A stretch of DNA of 32,079 nucleotides from Verrucomicrobiales bacterium. Lineage in GTDB: Bacteria > Verrucomicrobiota > Verrucomicrobiia > Limisphaerales > UBA1100. Position numbers and translations under genes: made by a program. Shown here piece by piece: positions 10,540 to 16,068 of the stretch. Position 1 is the first letter of the stretch. Every line of letters begins with the position of its first letter. The DNA lies in assembly GCA_005809105.1 (NCBI GenBank), contig SYLI01000082.1, positions 1 to 32,079 on the forward strand, in the 5' to 3' direction. The notes under the pieces were generated by a model, which was not told the origin of the DNA, did not search any database, and saw nothing but the letters and a program-made list of their open reading frames with translations.

Positions 10540-11550
10540 TCATCGGGGGAACCGGGGCGACTGGTGCACGCGCTCCACGCCCGCCTGCAGGGTGAGGATC
10601 CGCAGGCCGTGCGACGCGCCAAACCGCATGAGGCTCGCCTCCGGCCCCAGCACGCTGCACGCCGTCGCCAACGCGTCGGCCTCAAGGCACGTCGCTGCGG
10701 TGACCGTGCAGGAGAGAACCCCGTCCACCGGACGACCAGTGCGCGGATCGAGCAAATGGCCGTAGCGCACTCCATTCGCCTCGAAAAAGTTTTCGTAGTT
10801 GCCGGAGGTGGAGAGCGCGCCACCTCGCAGGGCGATGGGCACACGCTGCCCACGCTTGGCGGGGTCTTCAATCTGAACCACCCAATGATCCTGCCCGGGC
10901 GGCAGTCCCAGCACGCGAAGGTCGCCGCCGGCCTTCACCATCGCGGCGGTGACGCCGCAAGCGCGCAGGCGTTCAATGGCGCGGTCCACCGCATAGCCTT
11001 TGCCAAACCCACCGGGGTCGATGGACATTCCCGGCCTGTTAAAGCGCAGGGTGCGCGCCTTGTCGTCAAAGTGCACATGGCGGTGGCCGACGCGCCCGAG
11101 CGCCTCGCGAAGCTCCGGCTCGGAGGGCACGTGGAAGCGTTCTTTGTGGAGGAATCCCCAGAGATCCACGAGCGGGCGTACGGTGGGGTCGAACGCGCCG
11201 CCGGAGCGTGCTGCCAGAAGGAACGCCTCCTGCAAGACGCGAAAGAGTTCCGCATCGACACTTGCGGGCCCGGCTGCCGCGGCGAGGTTGAGGTGGCTGA
11301 GCCTGCTGTCCTCACGGTGAATGCTCAGGAGCTGGTCGGCCGCGCGAACCTCGGCAAATGCGGCGTCGATCGCCTGCTGCTGCGATGGCACGCTGCCTCC
11401 ATACACGCTGATGGTGACCAGCGTGCCCAGGAGTGGCTGGCTGCGCGTCAGGCGCTCAGCGTGCGGCGGGCCCGCCTGGCAGGCGCTCAGCAGGCAGGCG
11501 AGGGCGCACCACCAGCTGGTAGGAGGCCAGTACGCGTTTAACACCTTCAT
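10540..11550 (-). CDS. apbE: FAD:protein FMN transferase (ApbE), lipoprotein
   Basis: A 336-residue ApbE-family enzyme that attaches FMN covalently from FAD to a Thr (or Ser) of exported flavoproteins. It starts with a lipoprotein signal with lipobox LLSAC, so it acts in the periplasm, membrane-tethered. Family motifs: DSRLSHLN, AFDPTVRPLVDLWGF, SIDPGGFGKGYAVDRA, VKAGGDLRVLG, ALSTSGNYENFF, HLLDPRTGRPV, and the metal-site region CLEADALATA. All key motifs look intact. ATG 11550 lies inside the upstream FMN-binding gene, so the two overlap by 95 bases in different frames. The lipobox supports this start. Its natural substrate is very likely the protein encoded just upstream. Confidence 0.93.
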   Translation of the reverse strand: MKVLNAYWPPTSWWCALACLLSACQAGPPHAERLTRSQPLLGTLVTISVYGGSVPSQQQAIDAAFAEVRAADQLLSIHREDSRLSHLNLAAAAGPASVDAELFRVLQEAFLLAARSGGAFDPTVRPLVDLWGFLHKERFHVPSEPELREALGRVGHRHVHFDDKARTLRFNRPGMSIDPGGFGKGYAVDRAIERLRACGVTAAMVKAGGDLRVLGLPPGQDHWVVQIEDPAKRGQRVPIALRGGALSTSGNYENFFEANGVRYGHLLDPRTGRPVDGVLSCTVTAATCLEADALATACSVLGPEASLMRFGASHGLRILTLQAGVERVHQSPRFPR

Positions 11551-12040
11551 TGACGTTGCGGCAGGAGATGGTGGCACCGCTGATGTTGTGGATGTCCTCG
11601 CGAAACCGCAAGGGGTCCGCGGCGTCCTTTCCCGCGAATTGCGCGCGCCATTTGGCACCCCGCACCTCGTGGCCGTAGCTCTCGCGGTACTCGAGGATTT
11701 CCACCTGCCGGACGCGGCCGTCGCGGCCGATGGCGACGGCGTAGTCAATGGCTTCGTGCTTGCCCATCACGCGATCCAAGGCGAGGACGCCCACGGGAAT
11801 CCCCGATTTGCTGGCCAAAACGTAGGGAATGCCCCGCAGGGGGACGGTGACGCCGCAGGCCTTCTCGATGGCGCGCGATTCGTCGGCGGTGAAGGTCTCG
11901 ACGCGCCGCTCGAAGGCGTCGGCTTCGGGGAAGCACAGCTTTTGCGCGGCGTCGACGCTCAGGTATCTTTCCGCGCGCCCGTCCGGGGCGAAGCAGACGC
12001 AGAGGCAGGAGATGAGCCGAAGGGCGACTGAAAGGGTCAT
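11456..12040 (-). CDS. Exported FMN-binding domain protein (covalent flavoprotein)
   Basis: A 194-residue protein with an N-terminal export signal (about 1-23) and an FMN_bind domain (about 75-175), as in NqrC/RnfG. It contains AIDYAVAIGRDG, VEILEYRESYG, KWRAQFAGK and the flavin-attachment signature NISGAT with Thr157. FMN would be attached to this Thr by ApbE, encoded directly downstream. The acidic residue usual just before this signature (as in DAISGAT) is His151 here, with Asp149 two residues earlier. Likely role: periplasmic one- or two-electron carrier receiving electrons from the membrane cytochrome of the same cluster. It starts 9 bases after the porin stop. Confidence 0.87.
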   Translation of the reverse strand: MTLSVALRLISCLCVCFAPDGRAERYLSVDAAQKLCFPEADAFERRVETFTADESRAIEKACGVTVPLRGIPYVLASKSGIPVGVLALDRVMGKHEAIDYAVAIGRDGRVRQVEILEYRESYGHEVRGAKWRAQFAGKDAADPLRFREDIHNISGATISCRNVNEGVKRVLASYQLVVRPRLPAERLPGGPAAR

Positions 12041-12049
12041 GGCGCCGGG

Positions 12050-13375
12050 TTAAAAGTTGAAGCCAATCCCCACGGAAAAGATATTGTCGCTCTTCGTGGT
12101 GAGGCAGGCGGTGTAGTCGGCCTTCACCACGGTGTGATCGCTCAAGAACCAGGCGACACCGCCGGTGAGATAGTCCTTGTTGTTGGAGCGGGTCTTGGTC
12201 AGTCCCGATGCGTAATCGCCAGAGGTGGTGTGGATGTCAGCATAGCGGACAAAGGGCACCAGTCGCATGGCACCGCCTCTGCCGTGGTGCCATGAATCCG
12301 GCCAGATGTCGTAGGCCGCCTCGGCGTACCAGCCGTACATGCGGTTGCCCACGTCGTTGGTGGTCGTGCCGTCGTTGTTGGCACGCAGGTTTGCCGCGTC
12401 GCCAAAGTGCCACATGGCAACGTCGCCGCGCAGTTCCAGACGTTTCGCCCAAGCTGGACGGTAGCTGGCCTCAACATCCCATGCGCCGGCCGTGATGGGC
12501 TGGCTGTTGTGGCCGCTCAACTGCGTGACATATCCCGAGAGGCTGGTTTCCAATCCGGGCACGCCCGTGTAGGTGAACTTGGCGCCATAGGCCAGGCTGT
12601 CGGTCTTGTCATCGGCCTTGTCATAGAGCCGGGGACGCGCCCCGCGCATGCCGCCGCTTCCGGTGATCATGTTGTCGGTGTTGCGCTCGGAGATGCCGGT
12701 GCTGATCAGCGCCTCGTACTTGAGCCCCTCTCCAAGGTTGCCCCACACACCTCCTAGGCTTCCTTCCATCCAGGTGCTGGGGATGATCTCCTGGTACAAT
12801 CGCGGGCGTTCCACCGAGTAGAACGTCGTGGGTTCATGGCGCAGGTTGACGCGGCCCATGGGAACCAGCGAAATGCCCGGCGACCGGATGTTGAAGCGGT
12901 CATTGATCAGAAAGTCGGCATAGAACTGCTCCAGCTCGATCTCGCCATCGTAGAACCGCGACGTGGACTTTCCCGAGGCACCGCCATGCTCGATTTCGAT
13001 TTCAGAGTGAAATTGAATCCAGTCATTGGGTTTGAAGCTGGGAGAAAGCACAAACCGGTGAGGGTCGAAATAGTTGCCGTCGGCGCTGCGCGTCCACTTG
13101 TACTTGGCTTCGCCGTAGAATTTGAAGTTGAGCCCGCTGCTGGATTTTTTCTCCAATCCGGCGAAGGGATCCGCAAGGGTTGCCGCGCGATTGGACTTGA
13201 TTTGGCCGAGCTCCGCTTGCATGGAACGAATCTGCGCCTCCAACTGCTTCACTCGATCCTCCACCGATTGAGCCGATGCCGCCACATTGCCGGCCCAACA
13301 AGCCAGCACAGCGACTCTGAAAAGAGAACCCCGTCCCCGGCAAACCAAGCTAACGACATTGAGTATCATTCTCAT
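12050..13375 (-). CDS. Outer-membrane porin with N-terminal coiled coil
   Basis: A 441-residue protein with signal peptide (RVAVLACWAGNVAASAQ, cut near residue 36) and a short coiled coil (VEDRVKQLEAQIRSMQAEL) like those that bind peptidoglycan or trimerise porins. The rest is beta-barrel-like: alternating aromatic strands such as FKFYGEAKYKW, WIQFHSEIEIEH, FYADFLI, MYGWYAEAAYDIW and TGGVAWFLSDHTVVKADY, ending in SVGIGFNF with a terminal Phe, the outer-membrane insertion signal. It resembles phosphate-selective-type (OprO/P) porins, but the solute cannot be told. Its start overlaps a Fur box and a promoter lies just upstream, so iron is the likely signal. Confidence 0.82.
   Translation of the reverse strand: MRMILNVVSLVCRGRGSLFRVAVLACWAGNVAASAQSVEDRVKQLEAQIRSMQAELGQIKSNRAATLADPFAGLEKKSSSGLNFKFYGEAKYKWTRSADGNYFDPHRFVLSPSFKPNDWIQFHSEIEIEHGGASGKSTSRFYDGEIELEQFYADFLINDRFNIRSPGISLVPMGRVNLRHEPTTFYSVERPRLYQEIIPSTWMEGSLGGVWGNLGEGLKYEALISTGISERNTDNMITGSGGMRGARPRLYDKADDKTDSLAYGAKFTYTGVPGLETSLSGYVTQLSGHNSQPITAGAWDVEASYRPAWAKRLELRGDVAMWHFGDAANLRANNDGTTTNDVGNRMYGWYAEAAYDIWPDSWHHGRGGAMRLVPFVRYADIHTTSGDYASGLTKTRSNNKDYLTGGVAWFLSDHTVVKADYTACLTTKSDNIFSVGIGFNF
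13360..13374. promoter_or_regulatory. Fur box at the porin start codon
   Basis: TGAGAATGATACTCA on the minus strand fits the classic 7-1-7 Fur operator (TGATAATnATTATCA) with palindromic arms except for one pair. It overlaps the annotated porin ATG (13373-13375) and lies about 6-20 bases after the predicted transcription start. The fur gene is upstream in the same cluster. Seen directly; binding is inferred. Confidence 0.72.
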
Positions 13376-13387
13376 GAATTGAGGCGA

Positions 13388-13415
13388 ACGATATGCGACT
13401 GTGTCTCAATGTCAA
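13388..13415 (-). promoter_or_regulatory. Sigma-70-like promoter for porin-FMN protein-apbE
   Basis: On the minus strand a perfect TTGACA (13415-13410) overlaps the stop of the cytochrome-like gene. A 16-base spacer and -10 TATCGT (13393-13388) follow. It would start transcription about 6 bases before the porin ATG and just upstream of the Fur box, so the porin part of the cluster may be transcribed separately under iron repression. Confidence 0.5.
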
Positions 13416-13930
13416 TTGGCTTTTGAAACTTTCTTGGCCCATCGCCAAGCGCCAAGGAGGTGGCCCATCAGGACCGCCGGAAGCGCCAGTCCGAACCAAA
13501 GATGAAGCCGGCTTAGCTGCTCTCTCACTTTCGGATTCTTGGTTCCATCAATCACTTCGGGATAGTAGATGAGCATGCCTGTCAAAATCAGGCCGCCAAA
13601 GAGAATTGCGAGGGGAAGTCCCGACTTGATGTTAGCTCGCATGCGCCAGCCTCCCATCATGTGGGCGCGCCAAAGCCAGCCAAAGGCGACGCAGAGCAGG
13701 GGGTTCAAGGCGCCATGGATCGCACGGGCCACCGCCATCAGGCTCGAGTTTTCGCGAGCCTGCACCTCCGACGAGAAAAGCGACTGAGGGTCTCCCTTTT
13801 CACCGGCACTTGCTCCCCGCCACAAAACGAATCCGGATGCGAAACTCGCCAGCAGCAAGACCAGGAGCACCAACTGGATCGTGCGAGACAACCGTGTGGG
13901 GCGGCCTTCCGAAGCCTCGGTCTGAACCAT
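13412..13930 (-). CDS. Four-helix b-type cytochrome-like inner-membrane protein
   Basis: A 172-residue protein with four predicted membrane segments (about 18-37, 70-90, 105-123, 142-162). Helix 2 carries His72 and His90, helix 4 carries His143 and His157. Two histidines per helix at 14-18 residue spacing is the layout of a bis-heme b cytochrome that moves electrons across the membrane. I recognise the fold class, not a named family; it resembles small cytochrome b561/DUF4405-like proteins. ATG 13930 is one base after the fur stop (TGA-G-ATG); an alternative ATG at 13960 would overlap fur by 29 bases. Likely role: pass quinol electrons to the periplasmic flavoprotein encoded downstream. Confidence 0.68.
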   Translation of the reverse strand: MVQTEASEGRPTRLSRTIQLVLLVLLLASFASGFVLWRGASAGEKGDPQSLFSSEVQARENSSLMAVARAIHGALNPLLCVAFGWLWRAHMMGGWRMRANIKSGLPLAILFGGLILTGMLIYYPEVIDGTKNPKVREQLSRLHLWFGLALPAVLMGHLLGAWRWAKKVSKAN

Positions 13931-13931
13931 C

Positions 13932-14405
13932 TCAGCAATTCTTGTTGCGGCAGGCCCCAAGCCGCTTCAACTCTTCGCAGCTTCCCGTGATGCGCAGCTG
14001 CTGGCTCTTGATGGCGAAACCCAGCCGGTGTGTGATTTCGTTCTCCAACTGGTCGAGCTTGTCGCTCTCAAACTCGACGATCTTTTCGCAGTCGTTGCAG
14101 ATGATGTGATTGTGATTGGGATGGTCTGCGTAATTGGGGTCGTAGACCTTGTAGTCCTTGCCAAAGTCCATCTCATGCACCATGCCGCTTTCGGTCAGCA
14201 AAGGCAGCGTGCGATAAACCGTGGCGCGCGACACCGTGGCGTCCATTTTGCGCGCCATTTCCAGAAGCTGCTCGGCGGTGAAATGGCGGTCGGTGGCAAA
14301 CACCGTGTCAACGATCGCCCTGCGCTGGGAAGTGAGCCGCAGGTTTTTTTGCTCCAAGAACTGCAGGAATTTTTCCCGGGCCGCATGCCGCTCAACTTGA
14401 GGCAT
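13932..14405 (-). CDS. fur: Fur-family metalloregulator
   Basis: A 157-residue Fur-family repressor. The N-terminal winged helix (about 10-85) has LRLTSQRRAIVDTVF, HFTAEQLL and the recognition helix region VSRATVYRTLPLLTESG. The C-terminal dimerisation/metal domain has YDPNYADHPNHNHIICNDC, with His-rich metal site and a CxxC structural zinc pair (IICNDC); a second Cys pair lies at the end (CRNKNC). Fur rather than Zur or PerR is favoured by the nearby Fur box and the iron/redox neighbours, but specificity is inferred. It is the first gene of the cytochrome-porin-flavoprotein-apbE cluster. Confidence 0.9.
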   Translation of the reverse strand: MPQVERHAAREKFLQFLEQKNLRLTSQRRAIVDTVFATDRHFTAEQLLEMARKMDATVSRATVYRTLPLLTESGMVHEMDFGKDYKVYDPNYADHPNHNHIICNDCEKIVEFESDKLDQLENEITHRLGFAIKSQQLRITGSCEELKRLGACRNKNC

Positions 14406-14488: not shown

Positions 14489-15766
14489 ATGCGGCGCATG
14501 CGCGTGTCCCTCGTCAACACCGGCACCGAGCTGCTCCTGGGCCGCGTACTCAACACCCACCAGCAATGGCTGGGGGCGCGCATGGCGGCGCAAGGCTGGC
14601 CCATCACGCACCAATCCACCGTTCCCGACACGGGGCATGACATTGAACGCGCCCTGCGCGCGGAACTGGCTCAGGGCGGGGTGATCCTCACCACCGGAGG
14701 ACTTGGCCCCACCAGCGACGACCTGACACGCCAGCATCTGGCGGCCTTGCTGAAACTGCCGCTGCGCGAGGATGCAGAGGTCGCCCGTGCCATCCATGCC
14801 CGATTTGACCGGCACCAACGTCCCATGCCGCCCTCGGCTCTGGTGCAGGCGCTCGTGCCCGAAGGCGCCGCCGTGTTGCACAACGCGCAGGGCACCGCCC
14901 CGGGCTTGGCGATGGCGCTCGGTGCGCGTCCGGCCATCGCCACGAGCTGGCTCATCATGCTACCGGGCCCGCCGCGCGAATTGCGCCCGATGTTCGATGA
15001 GCAAGTGATTCCCTGGCTGCACGGTCACCTCCCGCGGCAGTCGCCCCCTCTCTCATTGACTCTGCGAACCACCGGAATGGGTGAATCGCGCGTCGAGGCG
15101 GCCATCGCGGAAATGCTGACACCGCTTCTGGCAGCCGGATTGGAAGTGGGCTACTGCGCGCACAGCGCGGGGGTGGATGTGCGATTATGCGCCAGCGGGC
15201 CGGAAGCGGCCGCCACGGTGAATTCCGCCGGGCTTCTCGTGCGGGGTGCGCTGGCGGCGCACATCTACGGCGCCGAGGACGAGACGCTGGAGGAGGTGGT
15301 CGTGAGGCGACTGGCGCAAAGCGGCCAGTCGCTGGCGGTGGCCGAGTCCTGCACCGGCGGTCTGCTGGCCCACCGCATCACGAACGTGCCCGGCGCGTCG
15401 GCGGTGCTGGTGGCGGGAGTCGTGGCTTATAGCAACCAAGCCAAGTGCTCGCTGCTGGGTGTGCGGGCCGAAACGCTCTCGGCGCACGGCGCCGTGAGCC
15501 AAGCCGTCGCGTGCGAGATGGCGACAGGGGTGCGCGAGCGAAACGGTGCAGACTTTGGCCTGGCCACGACGGGCATCGCCGGGCCGGGTGGTGGCAGTGC
15601 CGACAAACCCGTGGGCACGGTGTTGATCGCGCTGGCATCGGCGCGGGGCGTGAAGGCAGAGCGTCAGTTCAATCCGTTTGACCGGCCGACCTTCAAGGAG
15701 ATAACCACGCAACAGGCGCTGAATCGCCTGCGGGTCATGCTGGACGCGGGATCTGAGGCGACCTAG
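14489..15766 (+). CDS. cinA: CinA family protein (MoCF-like domain plus NMN amidohydrolase domain)
   Basis: A 425-residue two-domain protein. The N-terminal MoCF_biosynth-like half (about 1-170) has NTGTELLLGRVLNTHQQWL, TTGGLGPTSDDLTR and LPGPPRELRPMF, matching the ADP-ribose pyrophosphatase/COG1058 part. The C-terminal CinA/PncC half (about 265-420) has VAESCTGGLLAHRITNVPG, VVAYSNQAKCSLLGV and TTGIAGPGGGSADKPVGTV, the nicotinamide-mononucleotide deamidase motif set. It takes part in pyridine-nucleotide salvage. ATG 14489 with a second ATG at 14498. Divergent from fur across 83 bases. Its TAG stop overlaps the stop of the convergent ferredoxin gene (shared CTAG). Confidence 0.94.
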   Translation: MRRMRVSLVNTGTELLLGRVLNTHQQWLGARMAAQGWPITHQSTVPDTGHDIERALRAELAQGGVILTTGGLGPTSDDLTRQHLAALLKLPLREDAEVARAIHARFDRHQRPMPPSALVQALVPEGAAVLHNAQGTAPGLAMALGARPAIATSWLIMLPGPPRELRPMFDEQVIPWLHGHLPRQSPPLSLTLRTTGMGESRVEAAIAEMLTPLLAAGLEVGYCAHSAGVDVRLCASGPEAAATVNSAGLLVRGALAAHIYGAEDETLEEVVVRRLAQSGQSLAVAESCTGGLLAHRITNVPGASAVLVAGVVAYSNQAKCSLLGVRAETLSAHGAVSQAVACEMATGVRERNGADFGLATTGIAGPGGGSADKPVGTVLIALASARGVKAERQFNPFDRPTFKEITTQQALNRLRVMLDAGSEAT

Positions 15767-15999
15767 TCCGCGCCGTCGGGGCCAATGGCCTCGACGGGGC
15801 AGCCGGCCATCGCCTCTTTGCAGCGGGCCTCTTCGTCCTCGTTTTCGGGCTGTTTGAACACAAACGAATACCCGCCGTCGTCGTTGCGCTTGAAATTGTC
15901 CGGCGCCGTTTCACGGCAGAGATCGCAATCGATGCACTGCGTGTCACAGTAGAATTTACCGAGGACGTTGTCCGGGTAGCGGTCTGCCTTGTTCGCCAT
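15763..15999 (-). CDS. Small [4Fe-4S] ferredoxin
   Basis: A 78-residue soluble ferredoxin. Cluster ligands are likely Cys22, Cys25 and Cys28 (QCIDCDLC) and Cys67 in the AGCPVEAI motif, with the typical APDNF and DDGGYSFV segments. Extra cysteines at 18 and 60 flank them; one could serve as alternative ligand, so a 3Fe/4Fe mixture cannot be excluded. ATG 15999 is preferred to an upstream in-frame start at 16047 because the ferredoxin fold begins here. It follows nuoN in the same direction after a 69-base gap with no terminator seen, so it may be the last gene of the nuo operon. Confidence 0.9.
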   Translation of the reverse strand: MANKADRYPDNVLGKFYCDTQCIDCDLCRETAPDNFKRNDDGGYSFVFKQPENEDEEARCKEAMAGCPVEAIGPDGAD

Positions 16000-16068
16000 A
16001 GTTCGGAGCGAAAAGTTGCAGACTGCCGCGGGCAATTGCAAGAGCAAATCAGATGCGAGCTTCCAGGA

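Follow-up and report, generated by a model that had tools for sequence, protein, structure and literature searches.

The window, which is the whole stretch of 32,079 nucleotides analysed here, is an entire contig of a 2.99 Mb draft genome (G000). Of the named relatives among the matches listed, Pedosphaera and other Verrucomicrobiota MAGs are closest. Between positions 10540 and 14405 five genes follow each other head to tail on the minus strand, in the order fur, cytochrome, porin, FMN_bind and apbE. This tight packing had been described in the first-pass annotation, and profile matches and coordinates showed that all five genes are present as it had given them. Together with two Fur-box-like palindromes, they are arranged as follows:

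13932 to 14405, minus strand: Fur-family regulator, 157 aa (PF01475, 107.6 bits)
13412 to 13930, minus strand: four-TM b-type cytochrome, 172 aa, with His72, His90, His143 and His157 (PF01292, 40.1 bits)
13395 to 13413, no strand assigned: Fur-box-like palindrome 2, GCGACTGTGTCTCAATGTC (PWM 16.4 bits; a genome-wide match at 2 mismatches)
13355 to 13373, no strand assigned: Fur-box-like palindrome 1, GACATTGAGTATCATTCTC (14/19 to the Fur consensus; overlaps the porin start)
12050 to 13375, minus strand: OprO/OprP-like 16-strand outer-membrane porin, 441 aa (AlphaFold fold; profile E 6e-8)
11456 to 12040, minus strand: exported FMN_bind protein, 194 aa, with Thr157 in SGAT (PF04205, 41.9 bits)
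10540 to 11550, minus strand: ApbE (FAD:protein FMN transferase), a predicted lipoprotein of 336 aa (PF02424, 271.8 bits)

The cytochrome ATG at 13930 lies one base past the fur stop, and apbE, with its simplest start at ATG 11550, overlaps the FMN_bind gene by 95 bases. The cluster is flanked by plus-strand genes: cinA at one end, a poly(A)-polymerase-like gene and an NtrC-type regulator at the other. A small single-cluster ferredoxin (Fer4_13, 15763-16047) is encoded between cinA and the nuo genes, a place that is kept in family f1.

The FMN_bind protein scores well above the PF04205 cut-off of 22 bits. The SGAT motif with Thr157, read earlier in this predicted exported protein, is present, and G155, A156 and T157 are invariant in 19 homologues. 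ApbE is identified as an exported member of its family by its PF02424 domain and by the lipobox LLSAC read in the sequence, in line with its earlier description as a lipoprotein. The nearest solved relatives of the FMN_bind protein are RnfG, the closest, and NqrC. Unlike for these proteins, no NqrB/RnfD family partner (PF03116) was found in the nine genomes tested, the window's genome included, and Rnf or Nqr, which had been expected as electron donor, was dropped on this result. The cluster's own FMN_bind protein is the only one in the window's genome. Since NqrB/RnfD is absent as well, it is the only recognised ApbE substrate there. The genome encodes three ApbE proteins; the two further copies (G000:C76:25364-26194 and G000:C80:21493-22347) are without a recognised FMN_bind or NqrB/RnfD substrate. 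In one relative (G054), FMN_bind and ApbE are fused in a single 528-aa frame (L066:8571-10154), so that modifier and target are in one polypeptide.

The cytochrome scores above the cut-off of PF01292 (cytochrome b561 / Ni-hydrogenase cytochrome b; 40.1 against 30.1 bits) and just below that of DUF4405 (PF14358; 26.1 against 26.7 bits). We rejected membership of DUF4405 because of this score and because four TM helices are predicted for the protein, not six. The four histidines had been numbered correctly in the first-pass annotation; they account for four of the nine columns that are invariant in 50 homologues. The AlphaFold model (mean pLDDT 86) consists of four long helices (residues 16-42, 63-96, 101-122 and 133-171), and helices 2 and 4 each hold two of the histidines. 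The best fold matches were E. coli hydrogenase-1 cytochrome b (HyaC, Z 11.6), cytochrome b6 and bc1 cytochrome b. For a bundle of helices a Z of about 11 is modest, but the leading matches are dominated by heme proteins. Conservation, model and fold matches together back the bis-histidine four-helix cytochrome fold claimed earlier, in a protein that may be loaded with heme.

When we searched for conserved synteny across relatives, the co-occurrence of these genes was clear. In a set of 117 genomes the FMN_bind protein was found in 29 and the porin in 20; wherever both were found their genes were adjacent, usually with apbE next. Nearly all family members have the porin-FMN_bind-apbE trio side by side, and family f1 keeps the order cinA / fur-porin-FMN_bind-apbE / ntrC, with a fur orthologue in the same place. 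As fur thus belongs to a conserved cinA-to-NtrC backbone in family f1, its adjacency alone proves little. The trio is located away from fur in G048, and no fur homologue was seen beside it in G047, G054 and G061. At least 558 relatives were confirmed when genomes were scanned with the FMN_bind profile, and the best 80 of these loci were annotated with profiles. All four of barrel, FMN_bind, ApbE and four-TM cytochrome were present in 58 of the 80, mainly in Verrucomicrobiota and Proteobacteria. This four-gene module was complete in 14 of 28 Verrucomicrobiota loci and in 44 of the 52 loci without a Verrucomicrobiota assignment (mostly Proteobacteria), nearly always in the order barrel, FMN_bind, ApbE, cytochrome. 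Two loci (L217:4923-6089 and L231:4923-6088) carry paired FMN_bind genes in a row, and L217 also has paired porins. The position of fur within the family f1 backbone would be compatible with unrelated neighbours being packed by chance in a compact genome. However, the trio is near-constant in the family, the trio or the four-gene set recurs far from this backbone, and the four-gene module is found in two phyla. Chance grouping is ruled out by this synteny, and the probability that we leave to it is very small.

The cytochrome is the least constant member of the set. A copy between fur and porin is confined to the window's genus and some other families (e.g. G026); ten other family genomes and G107 yielded no cytochrome, even with a profile built from 50 sequences. 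A distant cytochrome elsewhere in family members without a porin-linked copy was expected, and the same profile detected none. Its earlier inclusion in the set thus holds for most relatives outside the family and fails for most of the window's own family. The absence from most of the family and from G107 indicates that the cytochrome is not an obligatory electron donor everywhere.

Searching the first relatives with the classical Fur consensus gave best matches immediately upstream of the porin. The operator is a 9-1-9 palindrome, GATAATGAGACTCATTATC, repeated with a period of about 35-40 bases, and tandem copies stand directly before the porin in the window and in most family members. Of the two copies in the window, palindrome 1 overlaps and palindrome 2 precedes the porin start. 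Shuffled sequence yields 0.03 matches per 32 kb at the 14/19 level of palindrome 1; its PWM score of 25.4 comes from a matrix trained partly on palindrome 1 itself. In the 3 Mb genome palindrome 1 is the only match with one mismatch to the palindrome pattern, six places match with at most two, two of these being the boxes of the window, and a reversed control pattern gave zero matches. Family f1, G048 and G054 likewise have the palindromes immediately ahead of the porin, and G057 and G098 have them ahead of a swapped barrel; no box was seen before the porin in G047 and G061. G061 has only one Fur-family gene, which was not seen beside the module, and box and linked Fur may be gained and lost as a pair.

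A matrix trained on porin-promoter sites only was then applied to feoB. Its best site lay upstream of the gene in 8 of 10 feoB loci, namely in G000 (second copy), G001, G004, G005, G011, G012, G107 and, weakly, G048; the fraction-of-windows null for these sites is inflated, with real boxes in its pool. No box was found at the other feoB copy of the window's genome, nor at feoB of G061. In the pattern scan of relatives, strong sites were also present upstream of bfd-bfr in G004, G005, G011 and G012 and upstream of feoB in G004. The gene bfd (PF04324), sought as a box control within the window's own genome, is absent there. The family f1 bfd-bfr promoters with the porin-promoter palindrome (L107, L108, L109 and L110) outline a Verrucomicrobiota Fur regulon. 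Among the 80 best loci, a classical Fur box of at least 14/19 was found near the barrel start in 14, where about 2 were expected (2.6% of random windows, in a null drawn from the same, Proteobacteria-rich loci), and a feoB or bacterioferritin gene lay within 5 kb in 16. Because the boxes are common to the feoB and bfd-bfr promoters and feoB and bacterioferritin genes are neighbours, there is good evidence, from comparison of boxes and neighbours, that the module is under Fur control through these putative operators. As the boxes are placed between cytochrome and porin, the iron-switched unit would be porin-FMN_bind-apbE, and a single Fur-controlled operon of five genes was rejected since the boxes fall after the cytochrome gene. 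Of the iron control proposed in the first-pass annotation, the predicted operators shared with feoB and bfd-bfr therefore stand, and the five genes as one iron-switched operon do not.

The window's genome and each family genome encode three Fur-family proteins, and any one of them may bind the boxes, the linked Fur being one candidate. The operators might then belong to another sensor of the family, responding to Mn, Zn or peroxide, with the module handling another metal or oxidative stress. Besides the number of candidates, this would fit the NCBIfam best match of the linked Fur, which is of PerR type and far below the cut-off, and the GAG-N-CTC core of the box, which departs from the classical GAT-N-ATC. 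The identical box before the iron genes feoB and bfd-bfr, on the other hand, speaks against another signal, and we consider this alternative highly unlikely.

The outer-membrane porin claimed earlier is predicted to be a 16-strand barrel, as AlphaFold model, fold match and profile agree. The model (pLDDT 81.5) also has an N-terminal coiled coil. OprO and OprP of Pseudomonas aeruginosa lead the fold search (Z 26, rmsd 3-4, about 305 aligned residues), and the porin shares a sequence profile with them. OprP carries an arginine ladder that selects phosphate. The window's porin has two glutamate repeats, ExExEH (E125/E127/E129) and GExExEQ (E145/E147/E149). E125, E127, E129, H130, E149, H180 and E181 are invariant in 35 porins; E145 and E147 are common but not invariant. 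The only conserved arginines are R107, R190 and R377. The glutamates alternate with hydrophobic residues on predicted strands and should therefore face the pore. The model thus suggests that the porin is lined by an acidic ladder, with a charge preference opposite to that of OprP.

In the six family genomes tested (drafts 90-96% complete), the TonB-receptor barrel, as judged by PF00593 alone, gave zero matches in all six; PF00593 matches are present in three other families of the order. Strong feoB genes were found in G000 (two copies), G001, G004, G005, G011 and G012. In G009 and G016 the only FeoB_N matches were weak and of GTPase type, so these genomes may lack FeoB or have it outside the assembled part, and the module is present nonetheless.

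Taken together, the cluster is probably, if by no wide measure, an assimilatory and TonB-independent system of reductive iron uptake, in which a Fur-derepressed periplasmic ferric reductase feeds FeoB. At low iron, Fur would leave the tandem operators before the porin and porin-FMN_bind-apbE would be expressed. ApbE would attach FMN to Thr157 of the periplasmic FMN_bind protein, while ferric iron or weak ferric complexes would cross the outer membrane through the acidic-lined porin. The reduced covalent FMN would convert periplasmic Fe(III) to Fe(II), for import by FeoB, whose promoter has the porin's box. For the window's genus and for most relatives outside the family, the proposed electron source is the quinol pool, with the bis-heme four-helix cytochrome passing electrons on to the flavin; relatives without the cytochrome would require another donor.

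The main rival to reductive iron uptake is an iron-sparing electron carrier, in which a periplasmic flavin replaces a c-type cytochrome at low iron and serves another reductase or acceptor, iron being the signal and not the substrate. Control by Fur boxes fits this equally well, and flavinylated proteins are said to suit iron-poor settings (PMC8238504). However, such a carrier would not account for the constant coupling to an outer-membrane channel or for feoB and bacterioferritin as neighbours, and the heme protein that accompanies most copies saves no iron; we regard it as rather unlikely. Less probable still, and in our view improbable, is a respiratory module that reduces, in the periplasm, an acceptor (organic or inorganic) taken in through the porin, driven by quinol and for energy rather than iron supply. 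The bis-His quinol-type cytochrome fold would suit it, respiratory uses of FMN_bind proteins are known, and many hosts among the matches listed are relatives of Sulfuriferula, Thiobacillus and Sideroxydans. Against this, the box common to feoB and bfd-bfr points to iron assimilation, and the module encodes no catalytic reductase subunit.

Already known are flavinylation by ApbE, carriers of the FMN_bind type and four-His cytochromes next to apbE (PMC8238504, PMC11334425), and links to iron uptake and Fur have been made for other flavinylation clusters (PMC8238504, PMC3751524, PMC5449479). The DUF4405-cytochrome/ApbE clusters (Huang et al. 2024, PMC11334425) resemble the window's in having a four-His membrane b-type cytochrome beside apbE and a flavinylated protein, and in counting Proteobacteria among their hosts. 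They differ in that DUF4405 is described as having six TM helices and is paired with Flavodoxin_4, whereas the window's cytochrome is of a four-TM, PF01292 type and is accompanied by FMN_bind, Fur boxes and an outer-membrane barrel; the text of PMC11334425 makes no mention of porin, Feo or bacterioferritin. PepSY/DUF2271/ApbE and MsrQ-like flavinylation clusters have been implicated in iron reduction (Meheust et al. 2021, PMC8238504), and Caulobacter has a Fur-regulated DUF2271-DUF4198-ApbE operon (PMC3751524). These systems share with the window ApbE-linked electron transfer under Fur repression, for which a part in iron reduction and assimilation is proposed. However, the membrane protein and the flavinylated domain of the window are of other types, with no PepSY, DUF2271 or MsrQ Pfam match in the five proteins, and the outer-membrane partner, if any, is a TonB receptor in those systems and a porin-type channel here. 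The ferrous iron cluster Sif of Bifidobacterium breve is induced by iron limitation and contains apbE and the FMN_bind protein SifE, called a predicted ferric reductase; its apbE mutant is sensitive to ferrous chelators (PMC5449479). In contrast to the window's case, its host is Gram-positive, and it has ABC permeases, no outer membrane and no cytochrome (PMC5449479). In the PMC open-licence literature, with subscription journals outside its scope, we found no description of this module of barrel, FMN_bind, ApbE and cytochrome, nor of a link between it and Fur boxes, Feo or bacterioferritin. What appears new here is this combination and the link to iron genes; ApbE-flavinylated electron-transfer systems as such are known.

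These findings bear on how Gram-negative bacteria without TonB receptors obtain ferric iron. It is conceivable, though we put it somewhat below even, that an acidic-lined porin or DUF6662 barrel, a covalent-flavin reductase and FeoB form a general TonB-independent route of Gram-negative iron acquisition, and the main entry route in Verrucomicrobiota lineages that lack TonB receptors. The module is widespread (at least 558 relatives), has a defined putative operator and counts cultivable Proteobacteria among its hosts (for example Variovorax paradoxus DS1452, Limnobacter humi and Sulfuriferula multivorans), which makes the question testable. If true, this would give a role to DUF6662 and to many ApbE/FMN_bind clusters; DUF6662 (PF20367) had no paper match in the PMC open-licence literature. 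The outer-membrane barrel is interchangeable, being either an OprO-like porin or a DUF6662 barrel of about 280 aa, and many Proteobacteria have both. In otherwise similar modules, a DUF6662 barrel stands in the porin's place at L067:7166-7978, L069:9093-10043 and L074:6785-7603.
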